A stretch of 64,000 nucleotides of DNA, taken from assembly GCF_900453105.1 (NCBI RefSeq), contig NZ_UGPW01000001.1, forward strand, positions 1 through 64,000, given 5' to 3'. A program made the translations under genes and the position numbers. The notes below the pieces were generated by a model. It did no database searches. It had not been told where the DNA came from and saw only the letters and a program-made list of their open reading frames with translations. This stretch comes from Moraxella ovis (GTDB taxonomy: Bacteria; Pseudomonadota; Gammaproteobacteria; Pseudomonadales; Moraxellaceae). Of this stretch, positions 47,161 through 53,583 are shown one piece after another; within the stretch, counting starts at the first letter, position 1; the number at the start of each line of letters is the position of its first letter.

Positions 47161-47209
47161 TTGCATATTCTCAATCTACAAACAGTAGAAATTAGTGGTG
47201 TCGTTAGAC
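47161..47209 (-). ncRNA. Solitary degenerate CRISPR repeat plus short guide (candidate autoregulatory crRNA, creR-like)
   Basis: On the minus strand, 47209-47174 is a 36-base copy of the array repeat. The first 10 bases (GTCTAACGAC) and last 19 bases (ATTTCTACTGTTTGTAGAT) are identical to the array repeat; 6 of the 7 middle bases differ. The crRNA hairpin CTACT/TGTAG is intact. It is followed by TGAGAATATGCA (47173-47162), which matches exactly the minus strand of the cas12a promoter region at 47269-47258, with a TTTA PAM at 47273-47270. Base pairing ends after 12 positions, too short for efficient cleavage but enough for binding. A hairpin AAATCAT/ATGATTT follows. Known parallel: CRISPR-derived RNAs that repress cas promoters. 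Function here is inferred. Confidence 0.8.
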
Positions 47210-47216
47210 GGTTAAA

Positions 47217-47225
47217 ATTATAACA
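47217..47225 (-). promoter_or_regulatory. Predicted promoter of the crRNA-like RNA (extended -10)
   Basis: On the minus strand TGTTATAAT is a perfect extended -10. A start about 7 bases downstream falls at the first base of the degenerate repeat (47209). No good -35 box is seen. Confidence 0.6.
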
Positions 47226-47257
47226 CAACATGTCATAAAATGATATGTTTATTCTAA

Positions 47258-47273
47258 TGCATATTCTCATAAA
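47258..47273 (-). promoter_or_regulatory. Predicted target site of the crRNA-like guide, with TTTA PAM
   Basis: Read on the minus strand: TTTA (PAM, 47273-47270) then TGAGAATATGCA (47269-47258), identical to the first 12 guide bases. The PAM edge lies 6 bp from the cas12a -35 hexamer, so a bound Cas12a complex should hinder RNA polymerase. Confidence 0.75.
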
Positions 47274-47279
47274 AAATTA

Positions 47280-47308
47280 TTGACGAGACAAATCGCCTTT
47301 CATAAGAT
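47280..47308 (+). promoter_or_regulatory. Predicted cas12a promoter
   Basis: TTGACG (47280-47285) and TAAGAT (47303-47308) are separated by 17 bp, a good sigma70 promoter. Transcription would begin near 47315, about 40 bp before the cas12a ATG. A GGAGA ribosome site lies at 47345-47349. Confidence 0.75.
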
Positions 47309-47356: not shown

Positions 47357-50300
47357 ATGTTATTTCAAGACTTTACTCATCTATACCCCTTATCAAAAAC
47401 CGTGCGCTTTGAATTAAAGCCCATTGGCAAGACATTAGAGCATATCCATGCCAAAAACTTTTTGAACCAAGATGAGACCATGGCGGACATGTACCAAAAG
47501 GTGAAGGCGATACTGGACGATTATCATCGTGATTTTATCGCTGATATGATGGGCGAAGTTAAGCTAACTAAGCTGGTAGAATTTTATGATGTGTATTTAA
47601 AATTTAGAAAAAATCCCAAAGACGATGGATTGCAAAAACAGCTAAAGGACTTGCAAGCAGTTTTAAGAAAAGAGATCGTGAAGCCCATCGGTAATGGCGG
47701 AAAATACAAGGCGGATTATGACCGCTTGTTTGGGGCAAAGCTCTTTAAGGACGGCAAAGAGCTTGGTGATTTGGCGAAATTTGTCATCGCCCAAGAGGGC
47801 GAGTCATCGCCAAAGCTTGCTCACCTTGCCCATTTTGAGAAGTTTAGCACTTACTTTACTGGTTTTCATGACAACCGCAAAAACATGTACAGCGATGAGG
47901 ATAAACACACCGCCATTGCCTATCGTCTGATTCATGAAAACTTACCACGCTTTATTGATAACCTACAAATACTGGCAACCATCAAACAAAAGCACTCGGC
48001 GTTGTATGACCAGATTATAAATGAGCTGACTGCGAGTGGCTTGGATGTGTCGCTGGCAAGTCATCTGGACGGCTATCACAATCTTTTAACCCAAGAGGGT
48101 ATCACGGCTTATAATACAAGACCCTGCTTGGCGGTATCAGTGGCAAGGCAGGTTCTCGCAAGATACAAGGTATCAATGAGCTTATCAATAGTCATCACAA
48201 CCAACATTGCCACAAATCCGAACGTATCGCCAAATTACGCCCCCTACACAAACAAATCCTAAGCGACGGCATGGGTGTGTCATTTTTGCCAAGCAAATTT
48301 GCCGATGATAGCGAGATGTGCCAAGCGGTCAATGAATTTTACCGCCATTATGCTGATGTTTTTGCCAAGGTGCAAAGCTTGTTTGATGGGTTTGATGACC
48401 ATCAAAAGGACGGCATTTATGTTGAGCATAAAAATTTAAATGAACTATCCAAGCAGGCATTTGGTGATTTTGCCTTGTTGGGTCGGGTGCTGGACGGCTA
48501 TTATGTGGATGTGGTGAATCCAGAGTTTAACGATAAATTTGCCAAAGCCAAAACCGACAATACCAAAGCAAAACTGACAAAAGAAAAAGACAAATTCATC
48601 AAAGGCGTGCATTCCTTGGCAAGCCTTGAGCAGGCGATAGAGCATTATACTGCTAGGCATGATGATGAGTCTGTGCAGGCGGGCAAACTTGGACAGTATT
48701 TCAAACACGGTCTGGCAGGCGTGGATAATCCAATCCAAAAAATACACAACAACCACAGCACCATTAAGGGTTTTTTGGAGCGTGAACGTCCAGCAGGCGA
48801 GCGAGCATTGCCCAAAATTAAGTCAGACAAAAGCCCTGAAATCAGGCAACTAAAAGAGCTGCTAGACAACGCTCTAAACGTGGTGCATTTTACCAAGTTA
48901 TTAACGACCAAAACCACGCTAGACAACCAAGACGGCAATTTTTATGGTGAGTTTGGGGTGTTGTATGATGAGCTTGCCAAGACTCCCACGCTTTATAACA
49001 AAGTGCGTGATTATCTGTCGCAAAAGCCATTTAGCACCGAAAAATACAAATTAAACTTTGGCAATCCGACATTATTAAATGGGTGGGATTTGAATAAAGA
49101 AAAAGATAATTTTGGGGTTATCTTACAAAAAGACGGCTGTTATTATTTGGCGTTATTAGATAAAGCTCATAAAAAAGTATTTGATAATGCTCCAAATACA
49201 GGCAAAAATGTTTATCAAAAAATGATTTATAAATTATTGCCCGGACCTAATAAAATGCTACCCAAAGTATTTTTTGCCAAGAGTAATTTGGATTATTATA
49301 ACCCTTCTGCTGAACTACTGGATAAATATGCACAAGGCACGCACAAAAAAGGCGATAATTTTAATCTAAAAGACTGCCATGCGTTGATTGATTTTTTTAA
49401 GGCGGGTATTAATAAACATCCAGAATGGCAACATTTTGGTTTTAAATTTTCGCCAACCAGTAGCTATCAGGATTTAAGTGATTTTTATAGAGAAGTCGAA
49501 CCACAAGGTTATCAAGTAAAATTTGTGGATATCAACGCCGATTATATTGACGAGTTGGTTGAACAAGGTCAGTTGTATTTATTCCAGATTTATAATAAAG
49601 ATTTCTCGCCCAAGGCTCACGGTAAGCCCAATTTGCATACTTTGTATTTTAAGGCGTTGTTTAGCGAAGATAATCTTGCCAATCCAATTTATAAATTAAA
49701 TGGCGAGGCACAGATATTTTATCGTAAGGCGTCTTTGGATATGAATGAAACCACCATTCATTGTGCAGGTGAGGTATTAGAAAATAAAAATCCTGATAAT
49801 CCCAAAAAGCGTCAATTTGTCTATGACATCATCAAAGATAAACGCTATACCCAAGATAAGTTTATGCTACATGTGCCTATTACCATGAATTTTGGTGTAC
49901 AGGGCATGACGATTAAAGAATTTAATAAAAAAGTTAATCAAAGCATACAGCAATATGATGAGGTGAATGTCATAGGCATAGACCGTGGCGAGCGACATTT
50001 ACTATATCTGACAGTGATTAATAGCAAAGGCGAAATCTTAGAACAGCGTAGTCTCAATGACATCACTACCGCATCGGTAAATGGCACACAAATGACCACG
50101 CCTTATCATAAGATACTGGACAAGAGAGAAATAGAACGCCTAAATGCTCGTGTCGGTTGGGGTGAGATTGAGACCATAAAAGAGCTAAAATCGGGCTATC
50201 TAAGCCATGTGGTACATCAAATCAGCCAGCTTATGCTTAAATATAATGCCATTGTGGTGTTAGAGGATTTAAATTTTGGGTTTAAGCGTGGTCGCTTTAA

Positions 50301-51147
50301 GGTGGAAAAACAAATTTACCAAAACTTTGAAAATGCTCTAATCAAAAAGCTAAACCATTTGGTATTAAAAGATAAGGCAGATGATGAGATTGGTTCATAT
50401 AAAAATGCCCTGCAATTGACCAATAATTTTACTGATCTAAAAAGCATTGGCAAACAAACAGGCTTTTTATTCTATGTGCCTGCATGGAATACCAGTAAAA
50501 TAGACCCTGAAACGGGCTTTGTGGATTTGTTAAAACCACGTTATGAAAATATCGCTCAGTCGCAAGCGTTTTTTGGTAAATTTGATAAGATTTGTTATAA
50601 CGCAGATAGGGGTTATTTTGAATTTCATATTGATTATGCCAAATTTACTGACAAAGCCAAAAACTCTCGCCAAATATGGAAGATTTGCTCGCATGGCGAT
50701 AAACGCTATGTGTATGACAAAACCGCCAATCAAAATAAAGGGGCGACCATTGGTGTTAATGTCAATGATGAATTAAAATCGCTATTTACTCGCTATCACA
50801 TCAATGACAAACAGCCAAATCTGGTTATGGATATTTGCCAAAATAACGATAAAGAATTTCATAAATTGCTGATGTATCTATTAAAGACATTGCTTGCATT
50901 ACGATATAGTAACGCCAGTAGCGATGAAGATTTTATTCTATCGCCTGTGGCAAATGATGAGGGTGTGTTTTTTAATTCGGCATTGGCGGATGATACACAG
51001 CCACAAAATGCGGATGCCAATGGGGCATATCATATCGCATTAAAGGGTTTGTGGGTGCTAGAACAAATCAAAAACAGTGATGATTTGAATAAAGTCAAAC
51101 TTGCCATTGACAATCAAACATGGTTAAACTTCGCTCAAAACCGCTAA
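47357..51147 (+). pseudogene. cas12a: CRISPR effector nuclease Cas12a (Cpf1), frameshifted
   Basis: Cas12a processes its own crRNA and cuts DNA next to T-rich PAMs. The frame starting MLFQDFTHLYPLSKTVRFELKP stays correct to Thr254, then is shifted by ACAAGACC at about 48116-48123. It runs out of frame to a stop at 48262. The correct text (LLGGISGKAGSRKIQGINEL) resumes in another frame from 48124 and continues unbroken to 51147; the first ATG in that frame is 48271 (958 residues). Removing 5 bases restores 1261 residues, a normal Cas12a length. In the repaired protein, RuvC residues are intact: Asp874 in GIDRGERH, Glu in VVLEDLNFGFKRGRF (codon at 50263), Asp in NADANGAY (codon at 51013). The PAM-facing text KLLPGPNKMLPKVFF is present. 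Confidence 0.95.
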
Positions 51148-51181: not shown

Positions 51182-51193
51182 TTGGGAGATAGT

Positions 51194-51748
51194 ATGGAAT
51201 ATCATACGTTAAATATCAGTCAATTAAATGATTTTATTTTTTGTCCCTATTCTATTTATCTACATAACGTCTATCAGGCATTGGATGATGATACATATCA
51301 TGATACGCCACAAGTCAAAGGCAAAATCGCTCATGAGGGCGTGGATAATGGCACATACAGCACCAAAAAGACCGTTATCACTGCCATGGCGGTGCATTCG
51401 GATAAATATGGCTTGACAGGTAAAATTGACCAATATTTTGCCGATAGCAAAAAACTCATCGAACGCAAACGCACGATTAAAACGATTTATGACGGTTATA
51501 AATTGCAGCTTTATGCCCAGTATTTTTGTTTGGTAGAAATGGGGTTTGAAGTGGATTATTTGGGTTTTTATTCGATGACGGATAATAAAAGCCACGCTTT
51601 GGCGTTGCCTGATGATGAGATTATTGATTGGTTTGAAAATCATTTGTATAAAATACGTCATTATAATCCCATGACTGATGATATTTACATTAATACCAAT
51701 AAATGCACTCATTGTATTTATCAGCCTTTGTGTGATAAGACGGACTAA
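51194..51748 (+). CDS. cas4: CRISPR-associated exonuclease Cas4
   Basis: Cas4 is a Fe-S cluster RecB-like nuclease that trims prespacers and selects those with a correct PAM before integration. The ATG at 51194 follows TTGGGAGATAGT; a TTG four codons upstream is less likely. The 184-residue protein shows all four cluster cysteines: Cys17 in FIFCPYS and Cys171, Cys174, Cys180 in KCTHCIYQPLC. The nuclease motifs are GKIAHE (His47), TGKIDQYF (Asp79), LIERKR (Glu90, Lys92) and QLYAQY (105-110). Intact. It is the first of three adaptation genes. Confidence 0.93.
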   Translation: MEYHTLNISQLNDFIFCPYSIYLHNVYQALDDDTYHDTPQVKGKIAHEGVDNGTYSTKKTVITAMAVHSDKYGLTGKIDQYFADSKKLIERKRTIKTIYDGYKLQLYAQYFCLVEMGFEVDYLGFYSMTDNKSHALALPDDEIIDWFENHLYKIRHYNPMTDDIYINTNKCTHCIYQPLCDKTD

Positions 51749-51761
51749 ATAAGGACAATCT

Positions 51762-52790
51762 ATGCTTAGCATTTCGGACATCAAAGAAAAACAGATGATA
51801 TTATTAAATAACTTAGAGGGCGGCTATCATCTTTGTATCTCGCAAGGCAATATCATCATCAAAAACAAGGACAGCGATGAGACATTAACCAAAATCACCC
51901 GCCATAAAGCCATGGCTCTGATGATTATTGGGTATTGTACGCTGACCAATGTGTTGATTGAATTTTGTCAAAAATATGGCATTGCCTTGATTTTGTTAAA
52001 TTCAAGATTAAGACCGATTTTATTTGTCAGCTCTTTTGGTGAGGCAAATTATCTATTAAGACAAAAGCAATATGCCATTGGAGATAATCAAGCCTTAAAT
52101 TTTGCCAAACATTTCATAGAACAAAAAGCCAATAATTCTATCACTTTATTAAAAGGCATTCGTAAAAAAGACGATGAATTACGCCAAATGATAGAGACAT
52201 TGGCTGATTATCAAAGGCGGATTGATCAAACCAAACGTTTGGATGAATTAATGGGTATAGAGGGTAATATTGCCAAAAGTTATTTTAAATATCATTTTGG
52301 GCAATTAAAACATACCTCTTGGCAAGGCAGAAAACCACGCCTAAAAATAGACCCTGTTAATGTTGTTCTGGATATGGGCTATACGCTATTATTTAATTAT
52401 ATAGAGATAAATTTGAGATTATTTGGTTTTGATGTTTACAAAGGCATGCTTCATCAGCTTTGGTATAAAAGAAAATCTCTGGTATGTGATTTGGTTGAAC
52501 CATTTCGCTGTATCGTGGATAAGCAGGTATTAACATCATTTAATCTTGGGCAATTTAAAACAGAGCATTTTAATCAAATAAAAATGCAATACCAACTAAA
52601 AACTGAACATCAAAGAATTTATAACGCCATTTTAATGCAGGCAATCATCACCCATAAAGTGCCAATATTTTTTTATATCAGGGATTTTTATCGTGCCTAT
52701 ATGAAATATGCTGATAAAGATATGGCGTTTGACGAATTGGTTTTGATGTTGCCAAGTTTTGACATGCAAGCAAATGGAGGAGATATATGA
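51762..52790 (+). CDS. cas1: CRISPR-associated integrase Cas1 (type V-A)
   Basis: Cas1, with Cas2, integrates new spacers at the leader end of the array. The 342-residue protein has the metal-binding catalytic residues Glu167 in LMGIEGNIAKSYF, His231 in GMLHQLWYKRKSL and Glu246 in DLVEPFRCIVDK. An ATAAGGACA ribosome site precedes the ATG, 13 bp after cas4. The last codons overlap the cas2 start (ATGA). The sequence is AT-rich like the other cas genes and looks intact. Confidence 0.95.
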   Translation: MLSISDIKEKQMILLNNLEGGYHLCISQGNIIIKNKDSDETLTKITRHKAMALMIIGYCTLTNVLIEFCQKYGIALILLNSRLRPILFVSSFGEANYLLRQKQYAIGDNQALNFAKHFIEQKANNSITLLKGIRKKDDELRQMIETLADYQRRIDQTKRLDELMGIEGNIAKSYFKYHFGQLKHTSWQGRKPRLKIDPVNVVLDMGYTLLFNYIEINLRLFGFDVYKGMLHQLWYKRKSLVCDLVEPFRCIVDKQVLTSFNLGQFKTEHFNQIKMQYQLKTEHQRIYNAILMQAIITHKVPIFFYIRDFYRAYMKYADKDMAFDELVLMLPSFDMQANGGDI

Positions 52791-53056
52791 TAATCGTCAG
52801 TTATGATATCAGTGATAATAAGGTGCGTGGACGATTTGCCAAATTTTTAATGCAATATGGCGATAGATTGCAATATTCGGTGTATGAAATCCAAAACAGC
52901 GAACGCATTTTAAATATCATCATCGAAAAAATAAAAGCAGAATTTGAGCCTTTATTTACAGGGGCGGACAGTGTCATTATTTTTCGATTTACAGAACGTG
53001 AAGTATTAAGGTTTGGCCATGCCAAACATCGCAATGAGGATTTGTTGATTTTATAA
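52787..53056 (+). CDS. cas2: CRISPR-associated protein Cas2
   Basis: Cas2 forms the central dimer of the Cas1-Cas2 integration complex. The 89-residue protein begins MIIVSYDISDNKVRGRFAKFL, with the conserved Asp7 after the first beta strand, and has the ferredoxin-like length. Its ATG overlaps the cas1 stop by four bases (ATGA) behind a strong GGAGGAG ribosome site, so the two are co-translated. The CRISPR leader starts right after its stop. Confidence 0.94.
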   Translation: MIIVSYDISDNKVRGRFAKFLMQYGDRLQYSVYEIQNSERILNIIIEKIKAEFEPLFTGADSVIIFRFTEREVLRFGHAKHRNEDLLIL

Positions 53057-53237: not shown

Positions 53238-53583
53238 GTCTAACGACCTTTTAAATTTCTACTGTTTGTAGATAGGTGTGCAAATTCTCACATCAAATTG
53301 TCTAACGACCTTTTAAATTTCTACTGTTTGTAGATAATTTTAAGTTCTTGGCTTTTATTCTGGAGTCTAACGACCTTTTAAATTTCTACTGTTTGTAGAT
53401 CTTGTGGACCTTGTGCGAAGCGTAGGGCGTCTAACGACCTTTTAAATTTCTACTGTTTGTAGATGTGTTATACGCTCTGTGACTCTCTGGTAGTCTAACG
53501 ACCTTTTAAATTTCTACTGTTTGTAGATCGCCGCCTCGCATGCTACTCTATGCTGTCTAACGACCTTTTAAATTTCTACTGTT
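53238..53583 (+). CRISPR. Type V-A CRISPR array, 6 repeats and 5 spacers
   Basis: The 36-base repeat begins GTCTAACGACC and ends AATTTCTACTGTTTGTAGAT, the Cas12a crRNA handle with stem CTACT/TGTAG... as used by Moraxella Cas12a. Repeats start at 53238, 53300, 53365, 53429, 53493 and 53555. Five are identical. The sixth is identical for 29 bases, then its last seven bases (TGTAGAT) are replaced by CTTTTAA, marking the leader-distal end. Spacers are 26, 29, 28, 28 and 26 bases. The array has the same orientation as the cas genes. No match to the spacers was noticed elsewhere in this window. Confidence 0.98.

Follow-up and report, generated by a model that had tools for sequence, protein, structure and literature searches.

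CreRs, the cas-regulating RNAs of CRISPR-Cas types I-B, I-E and V-A (Liu et al., 2023, as covered in the reviews PMC13131331, PMC12737573 and PMC12948488), offer the closest comparison for a small unit that we find upstream of cas12a in Moraxella. One of the reviews places CreR together with Cas12a in type V-A and describes its release by anti-CRISPRs (PMC12737573), and another presents CreR as a mini-CRISPR regulatory RNA responding to crRNA abundance as well as to anti-CRISPRs, type V-A not being named in the parts of that text that deal with it (PMC12948488). As far as these descriptions go, CreR and the Moraxella unit have in common a crRNA-like RNA derived from a mini-CRISPR (predicted in the case of Moraxella), partial complementarity to a cas promoter, the general lack of an adjacent toxin, occurrence in type V-A and a proposed release through anti-CRISPRs. 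No difference in kind is seen against the review descriptions; the cas12a gene of the window, by which we mean the whole stretch of 64,000 nucleotides of Moraxella ovis that was analysed, is frame-shifted. The Moraxella unit is not new in kind, since a type V-A CreR was published in 2023; what is new here is the comparative support. The initial annotation of the locus had taken CRISPR-derived RNAs that repress cas genes to be known as a concept, and this is borne out to the extent that the reviews already include a CreR of type V-A. Among the papers listed by a literature search, in which subscription papers lay mostly outside the coverage, there was no description of a Moraxella CreR.

Two further systems invite comparison. 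CreTA, an RNA toxin-antitoxin system that guards CRISPR-Cas, is alike in that, in the descriptions consulted, its CreA is a CRISPR-like RNA of partial complementarity with which the Cas effector represses a promoter. It differs in that CreA silences a toxin gene, whereas the guide of the Moraxella unit is not aimed at the promoter of such a gene, its only site in the genome with a TTTV PAM and a 10-nt seed being the promoter of cas12a. The self-repression of Cas9 in type II-A is carried out by a long form of the tracrRNA. It therefore differs from the Moraxella unit in its effector, in drawing its RNA from the tracrRNA and in having no repeat-spacer unit. In both, a Cas effector would be directed against its own expression, a repression that anti-CRISPRs relieve in the review account of SpyCas9.

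The lone repeat and its match in the cas12a promoter

The features of the locus are collected in Table 1. Upstream of cas12a, at a distance of 147 bp, lies a degenerate lone CRISPR repeat that has 30 of 36 bases in common with the repeat of the array, all six mismatches forming one block (positions 11-16); its final 20 bases agree with the array repeat throughout (20/20), leaving the Cas12a handle intact. The handle pattern is present in six copies in the whole 2.32 Mb genome, five of them in the array and the sixth in the lone repeat, and when the array was used as a query against the genome as a check for self-targeting, the matches were the array itself and the lone repeat only. As is typical of CreR, the locus combines a degenerate mini-CRISPR beside cas genes with a limited complementarity to a cas promoter next to a proper PAM, in this case 12 nt beside TTTA. 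At position 13 the guide has A and the target T, so that pairing ends at 12 bases. The two 12-base copies differ on both flanks; the repeat comes before the guide copy and the PAM before the target copy.

In these respects our comparison agrees with the initial annotation, which had reported the lone minus-strand repeat with its intact handle, the recurrence of the 12 guide bases next to TTTA and the mismatch at position 13. The cas12a promoter that it had named (TTGACG, 17 bp, TAAGAT) was also picked by our promoter scan. Its distance of 6 bp to the -35 box is correct if counted from the PAM, but the target itself ends 10 bp from that box.

The ends of the predicted RNA are less clear-cut. 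The extended -10 TGTTATAAT, from which the RNA had been proposed to start, is present, and judged by sequence only it would place the start at about 47210-47209, but it was left unlisted by the promoter scan, which requires a -35 as well. Folding of 60 nt of the predicted RNA yields the handle hairpin, and the 60 nt as a whole are no more stable than their shuffles (z -0.57). The suggestion that the sstT terminator ends the RNA is the weaker part of the proposal: at this site the terminator scanner gave a plus-strand candidate and no minus-strand candidate, and the left neighbour is a different one in three of the four close relatives.

The target sits between the divergent promoters of cas12a and of the predicted RNA, with some 36 bp separating it from the -10 of the latter, a position that lends itself to the idea that the RNA represses more than cas12a, such as the promoter from which it would itself be transcribed, or another gene in a different place. 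We regard this as unlikely, because the combination of TTTV and the first ten guide bases has one site in the 2.32 Mb genome, which is the cas12a promoter, and because a 12-nt R-loop would end before the promoter of the RNA is reached.

The gene for the cognate effector is present in the window but frame-shifted. It is split into two frames (47357-51147), with the frame shift near 48118, and each fragment matches its own part of the Cas12a family; the frames are unbroken in the relatives G001, G002, G016 and G018 (named below). The initial annotation, which had predicted a regulatory loop from the layout, overlooked this shift, and while the class of mechanism stands, the loop is probably not running here. 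Given the frame shift, the brake is probably idle in the window strain, or a relic of recent loss, and it has nothing to act with unless the shift is an assembly fault. The genes cas4, cas1 and cas2 and the array look intact although cas12a is frame-shifted. The sixth repeat of the array (53554-53583) is partial and resembles a decayed terminal repeat.

Table 1. Features of the Moraxella ovis window around the lone repeat and the type V-A genes, with coordinates, strand and the basis of each assignment
Feature	Coordinates	Strand	Basis
Degenerate lone CRISPR repeat (creR handle)	47174..47209	-	Comparison with array repeat
Guide seed TGAGAATATGCA of predicted RNA	47162..47173 (47173-47162)	-	Sequence; co-varies with target in G001
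Extended -10 TGTTATAAT	47217..47225 (47225-47217)	-	Sequence; kept in four close relatives
Target copy of the 12 guide bases, cas12a promoter region	47258..47269	-	Sequence, genome search
PAM TTTA	47270..47273	-	Sequence; TTTA in 12/12 units found
cas12a promoter TTGACG-17-TAAGAT	47280..47308	+	Consensus match only, 9-of-12, picked by scan
cas12a, first fragment, 301 aa, out of frame near its end	47357..48262	+	Family match
cas12a, second fragment, 958 aa, 97% to intact M. bovoculi Cas12a	48271..51147	+	Family match
cas4 (type V)	51182..51748	+	Family match above cut-off
cas1 (type V)	51762..52790	+	Family match above cut-off
cas2	52787..53056	+	Family match above cut-off
Type V-A CRISPR array, five full repeats and a partial sixth	53238..53583	+	Repeat search

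Co-variation of guide and promoter within Moraxella

Cas12a was detected in nine of 22 genomes of the genus. A layout of unit, promoter and cas12a is common to five of them: the window strain (G000), G001, which fits Moraxella sp. K1664, M. lacunata (G002), M. bovoculi 237 (G016) and M. caprae (G018), where uninterrupted pairing extends over 12, 13, 11, 10 and 11 nt, respectively. Relatives in which guide and promoter no longer match, which the initial annotation had named as evidence against its reading, were looked for, and in all four close relatives 10-13 nt still match. The alignment across Moraxella that it had proposed reveals the co-variation directly: in G001 guide and target both read TAAGAATATGTA, positions 2 and 11 being changed identically in both. 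Pairing is in this way kept among relatives, as would be looked for in a CreR. The left flank of the unit is the end of sstT in G000 and G016 and another sequence in G001, G002 and G018, and the block of creR, promoter and cas12a is conserved despite this differing neighbour.

A sixth genome, G017 (L045 in the survey below), carries a different guide, TGGTTGTATTG..., with a nine-base match next to a plus-strand TTTA in the promoter of its own cas12a. When each of these six Moraxella genomes was searched with the PAM and its own seed (10 nt, or 9 nt for G017), one site was returned in each, always the cas12a promoter; two extra rows in the search of the five layout genomes (in G000 and G016) stem from the position 2 variant of the other species. 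No such unit was found upstream of cas12a in M. haemolytica (G013), G015 and M. oculi (G020). The type V-A array of G015 (L027:5500-9500) has more than 60 repeats, and there is no lone unit upstream of its cas12a.

Units in other phyla and controls for chance

The wider survey covered 83 distinct cas12a loci, made up of 79 of 80 named loci together with the window, G001, G013 and G015, and creR-like units are evident in 12 of them, a proportion that should not be read as a family rate because the named loci are the best 80 of 350 relatives. Two of the 85 entries scanned were dropped, L042 as a synthetic-looking tagged Cas12a and G020 as the same locus as L044 (M. oculi). More than 500 upstream bases were available for 76 of the 85 entries, and 200 or fewer for L071 and L101. 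In the Paracoccus salsus assembly, the Cas12a on contig L042 (L042:1-4197), viewed by eye, lies behind an NLS-like stretch and a glycine-serine linker, which gives it the look of a synthetic construct that has entered a public genome as a contaminant.

A perfect lone handle in a TTTCTAC context occurs in 12 loci, and all 12 have a TTTA-adjacent guide match near the start of cas12a. Six of these loci lie outside Moraxella, namely L049, L094 and L098 in Bacteroidales (one of them in Paludibacteraceae), L083 in Chryseobacterium, and L081 and L082 in Campylobacteraceae; the units are thus also found in Bacteroidota and Campylobacterota. The match is 15 nt long in L098, 11 in L049, 9 in L081, 8 in L094 and 7 in L083, and L082 has nine bases with one mismatch. 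Grouped by guide, the 12 units represent seven unrelated guide/target pairs, all with TTTA, and, with L082 set aside, their uninterrupted pairing is 7-15 nt long. L081 and L082 differ from each other at guide positions 5 and 8, and the targets differ in the same way; L082 has one uncompensated mismatch, at position 6, and its match was found by eye, having been missed by the unit scan. In L094 (about 594 and 129 bases upstream of cas12a) inspection by eye shows eight matching bases, a one-base bulge and seven more, a pattern such as would result from the copying of guide to target, or the reverse, followed by a shift.

The remaining 71 of the 83 loci, including three from Moraxella (G013, G015 and M. 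oculi), were without such a unit in this search. Handles with one mismatch, seen in nine loci (L041, L043, L073, L079, L085, L088, L092, L104 and L118), were not counted, nor was a perfect handle outside the TTTCTAC context in L111. The sole match of seven or more bases among these uncounted handles is one of 7 bases beside GTTC in L041, and L085, with its one-mismatch handle in the TTTCTAC context, has no target. Some matches of 8-10 bases that came from a looser scan (e.g., L055, L110, L120, L093) have no real preceding handle and were taken as chance. Searching 398 genomes from the phylum for Cas12a added one genome; its locus, L135, duplicates L072 and lacks an upstream handle.

Upstream regions of 1500 bases were used for the unit scan, 1200 for the looser scan, 500 for the control with array spacers and 400 for shuffles. 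For the window promoter, none of 4000 dinucleotide shuffles equalled the length of the real match beside a PAM, and the window is one of eight among the 12 loci with a count of 0/4000. The real length was reached once per 4000 shuffles in L081, three times in L094, 10 times in L083 and 75 times in L082, and chance may account for any of these weaker cases taken on its own. Array spacers served as a natural control: 917 of them, from 56 arrays at 50 loci, were compared with their own cas12a promoter (-500 to +60, any TTN); none reached 9 bases and two reached 8. TTTA makes up 110 of the 205 TTTV sites in the promoters of loci with units.

These results bear on the view of the unit as a neutral relic, in which the guide of an old repeat-spacer stub would have its 12 bases in common with the promoter through local duplication or chance. 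The broken cas12a of the window strain, the AT richness of the region and the degeneration of the repeat in one block would all suit such an origin. It is nevertheless very improbable in light of the shuffle and spacer controls, the parallel two-base change in guide and target of G001, the differing flanks of the two copies, and the other guides, in G017 and in other phyla, that match their own cas12a promoters beside TTTA. That the unit is an ordinary lone crRNA gene directed mainly at a phage or plasmid, its likeness to the promoter being incidental, is hardly credible despite the intact handle and a guide tail that has no explanation past position 12, because four of the five species have identical first ten guide bases, and those of the fifth changed in step with its promoter, unlike spacer turnover.

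A predicted brake on cas12a transcription

We consider it highly probable that the lone unit is a type V-A creR, the RNA of which would make Cas12a bind, and not cut, its own promoter and so lower the transcription of cas12a. In the mechanism that we propose, the one-unit, decayed CRISPR would be transcribed away from cas12a, and since the RNA retains the handle, Cas12a could take it up like a crRNA. The guide would then pair over 12 bases beside TTTA, enough to hold Cas12a and too few to cut, and the complex, sitting immediately upstream of the -35 box, would reduce cas12a transcription. The brake would be lifted once Cas12a is drawn away from this site by ordinary crRNAs or by anti-CRISPR proteins that disable it. 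That the RNA is loaded, that it represses and that anti-CRISPRs relieve the repression we infer by analogy with the CreRs already published.

For elements of this kind, autorepression of cas12a by binding without cutting appears to be the best-supported function, because guide and target co-vary, each of several guides matches the cas12a promoter of its own locus, all 12 units found have TTTA as PAM and uninterrupted pairing stays at or below 15 nt. The initial annotation had put forward an RNA that guides Cas12a to its own promoter without cutting, and at the level of the kind this comparative pattern argues for it. In one study, E. coli were killed through a perfect target with a 16-base guide and not with a 15-base guide (PMC12171280; LbCas12a according to the discussion of that paper). 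From this limit, pairing over 12 bases would thus be expected to allow binding without cutting, an analogy drawn from another ortholog and from truncated guides as opposed to long guides with a mismatched tail.

More tentatively, with the balance tilting slightly against it, type V-A creRs may arise repeatedly with unrelated guides under one rule, consisting of a TTTA PAM and an uninterrupted pairing no longer than 15 bases, slightly short of the 16 needed for cutting. If this rule is true, selection would have tuned pairing to stay below the cutting threshold of Cas12a.

The units offer natural comparative evidence that hosts may use Cas12a as a programmable repressor of its own gene. With guides and promoters that co-vary, unrelated guides elsewhere and an apparent ceiling on pairing, the threshold for cutting by Cas12a becomes testable from natural sequences. 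Moraxella bovoculi is, according to a review, a source of AcrVA anti-CRISPRs and of a Cas12a studied with them; as the locus of M. bovoculi 237 is among the units, release of the brake by anti-CRISPRs could be tested with known pieces.
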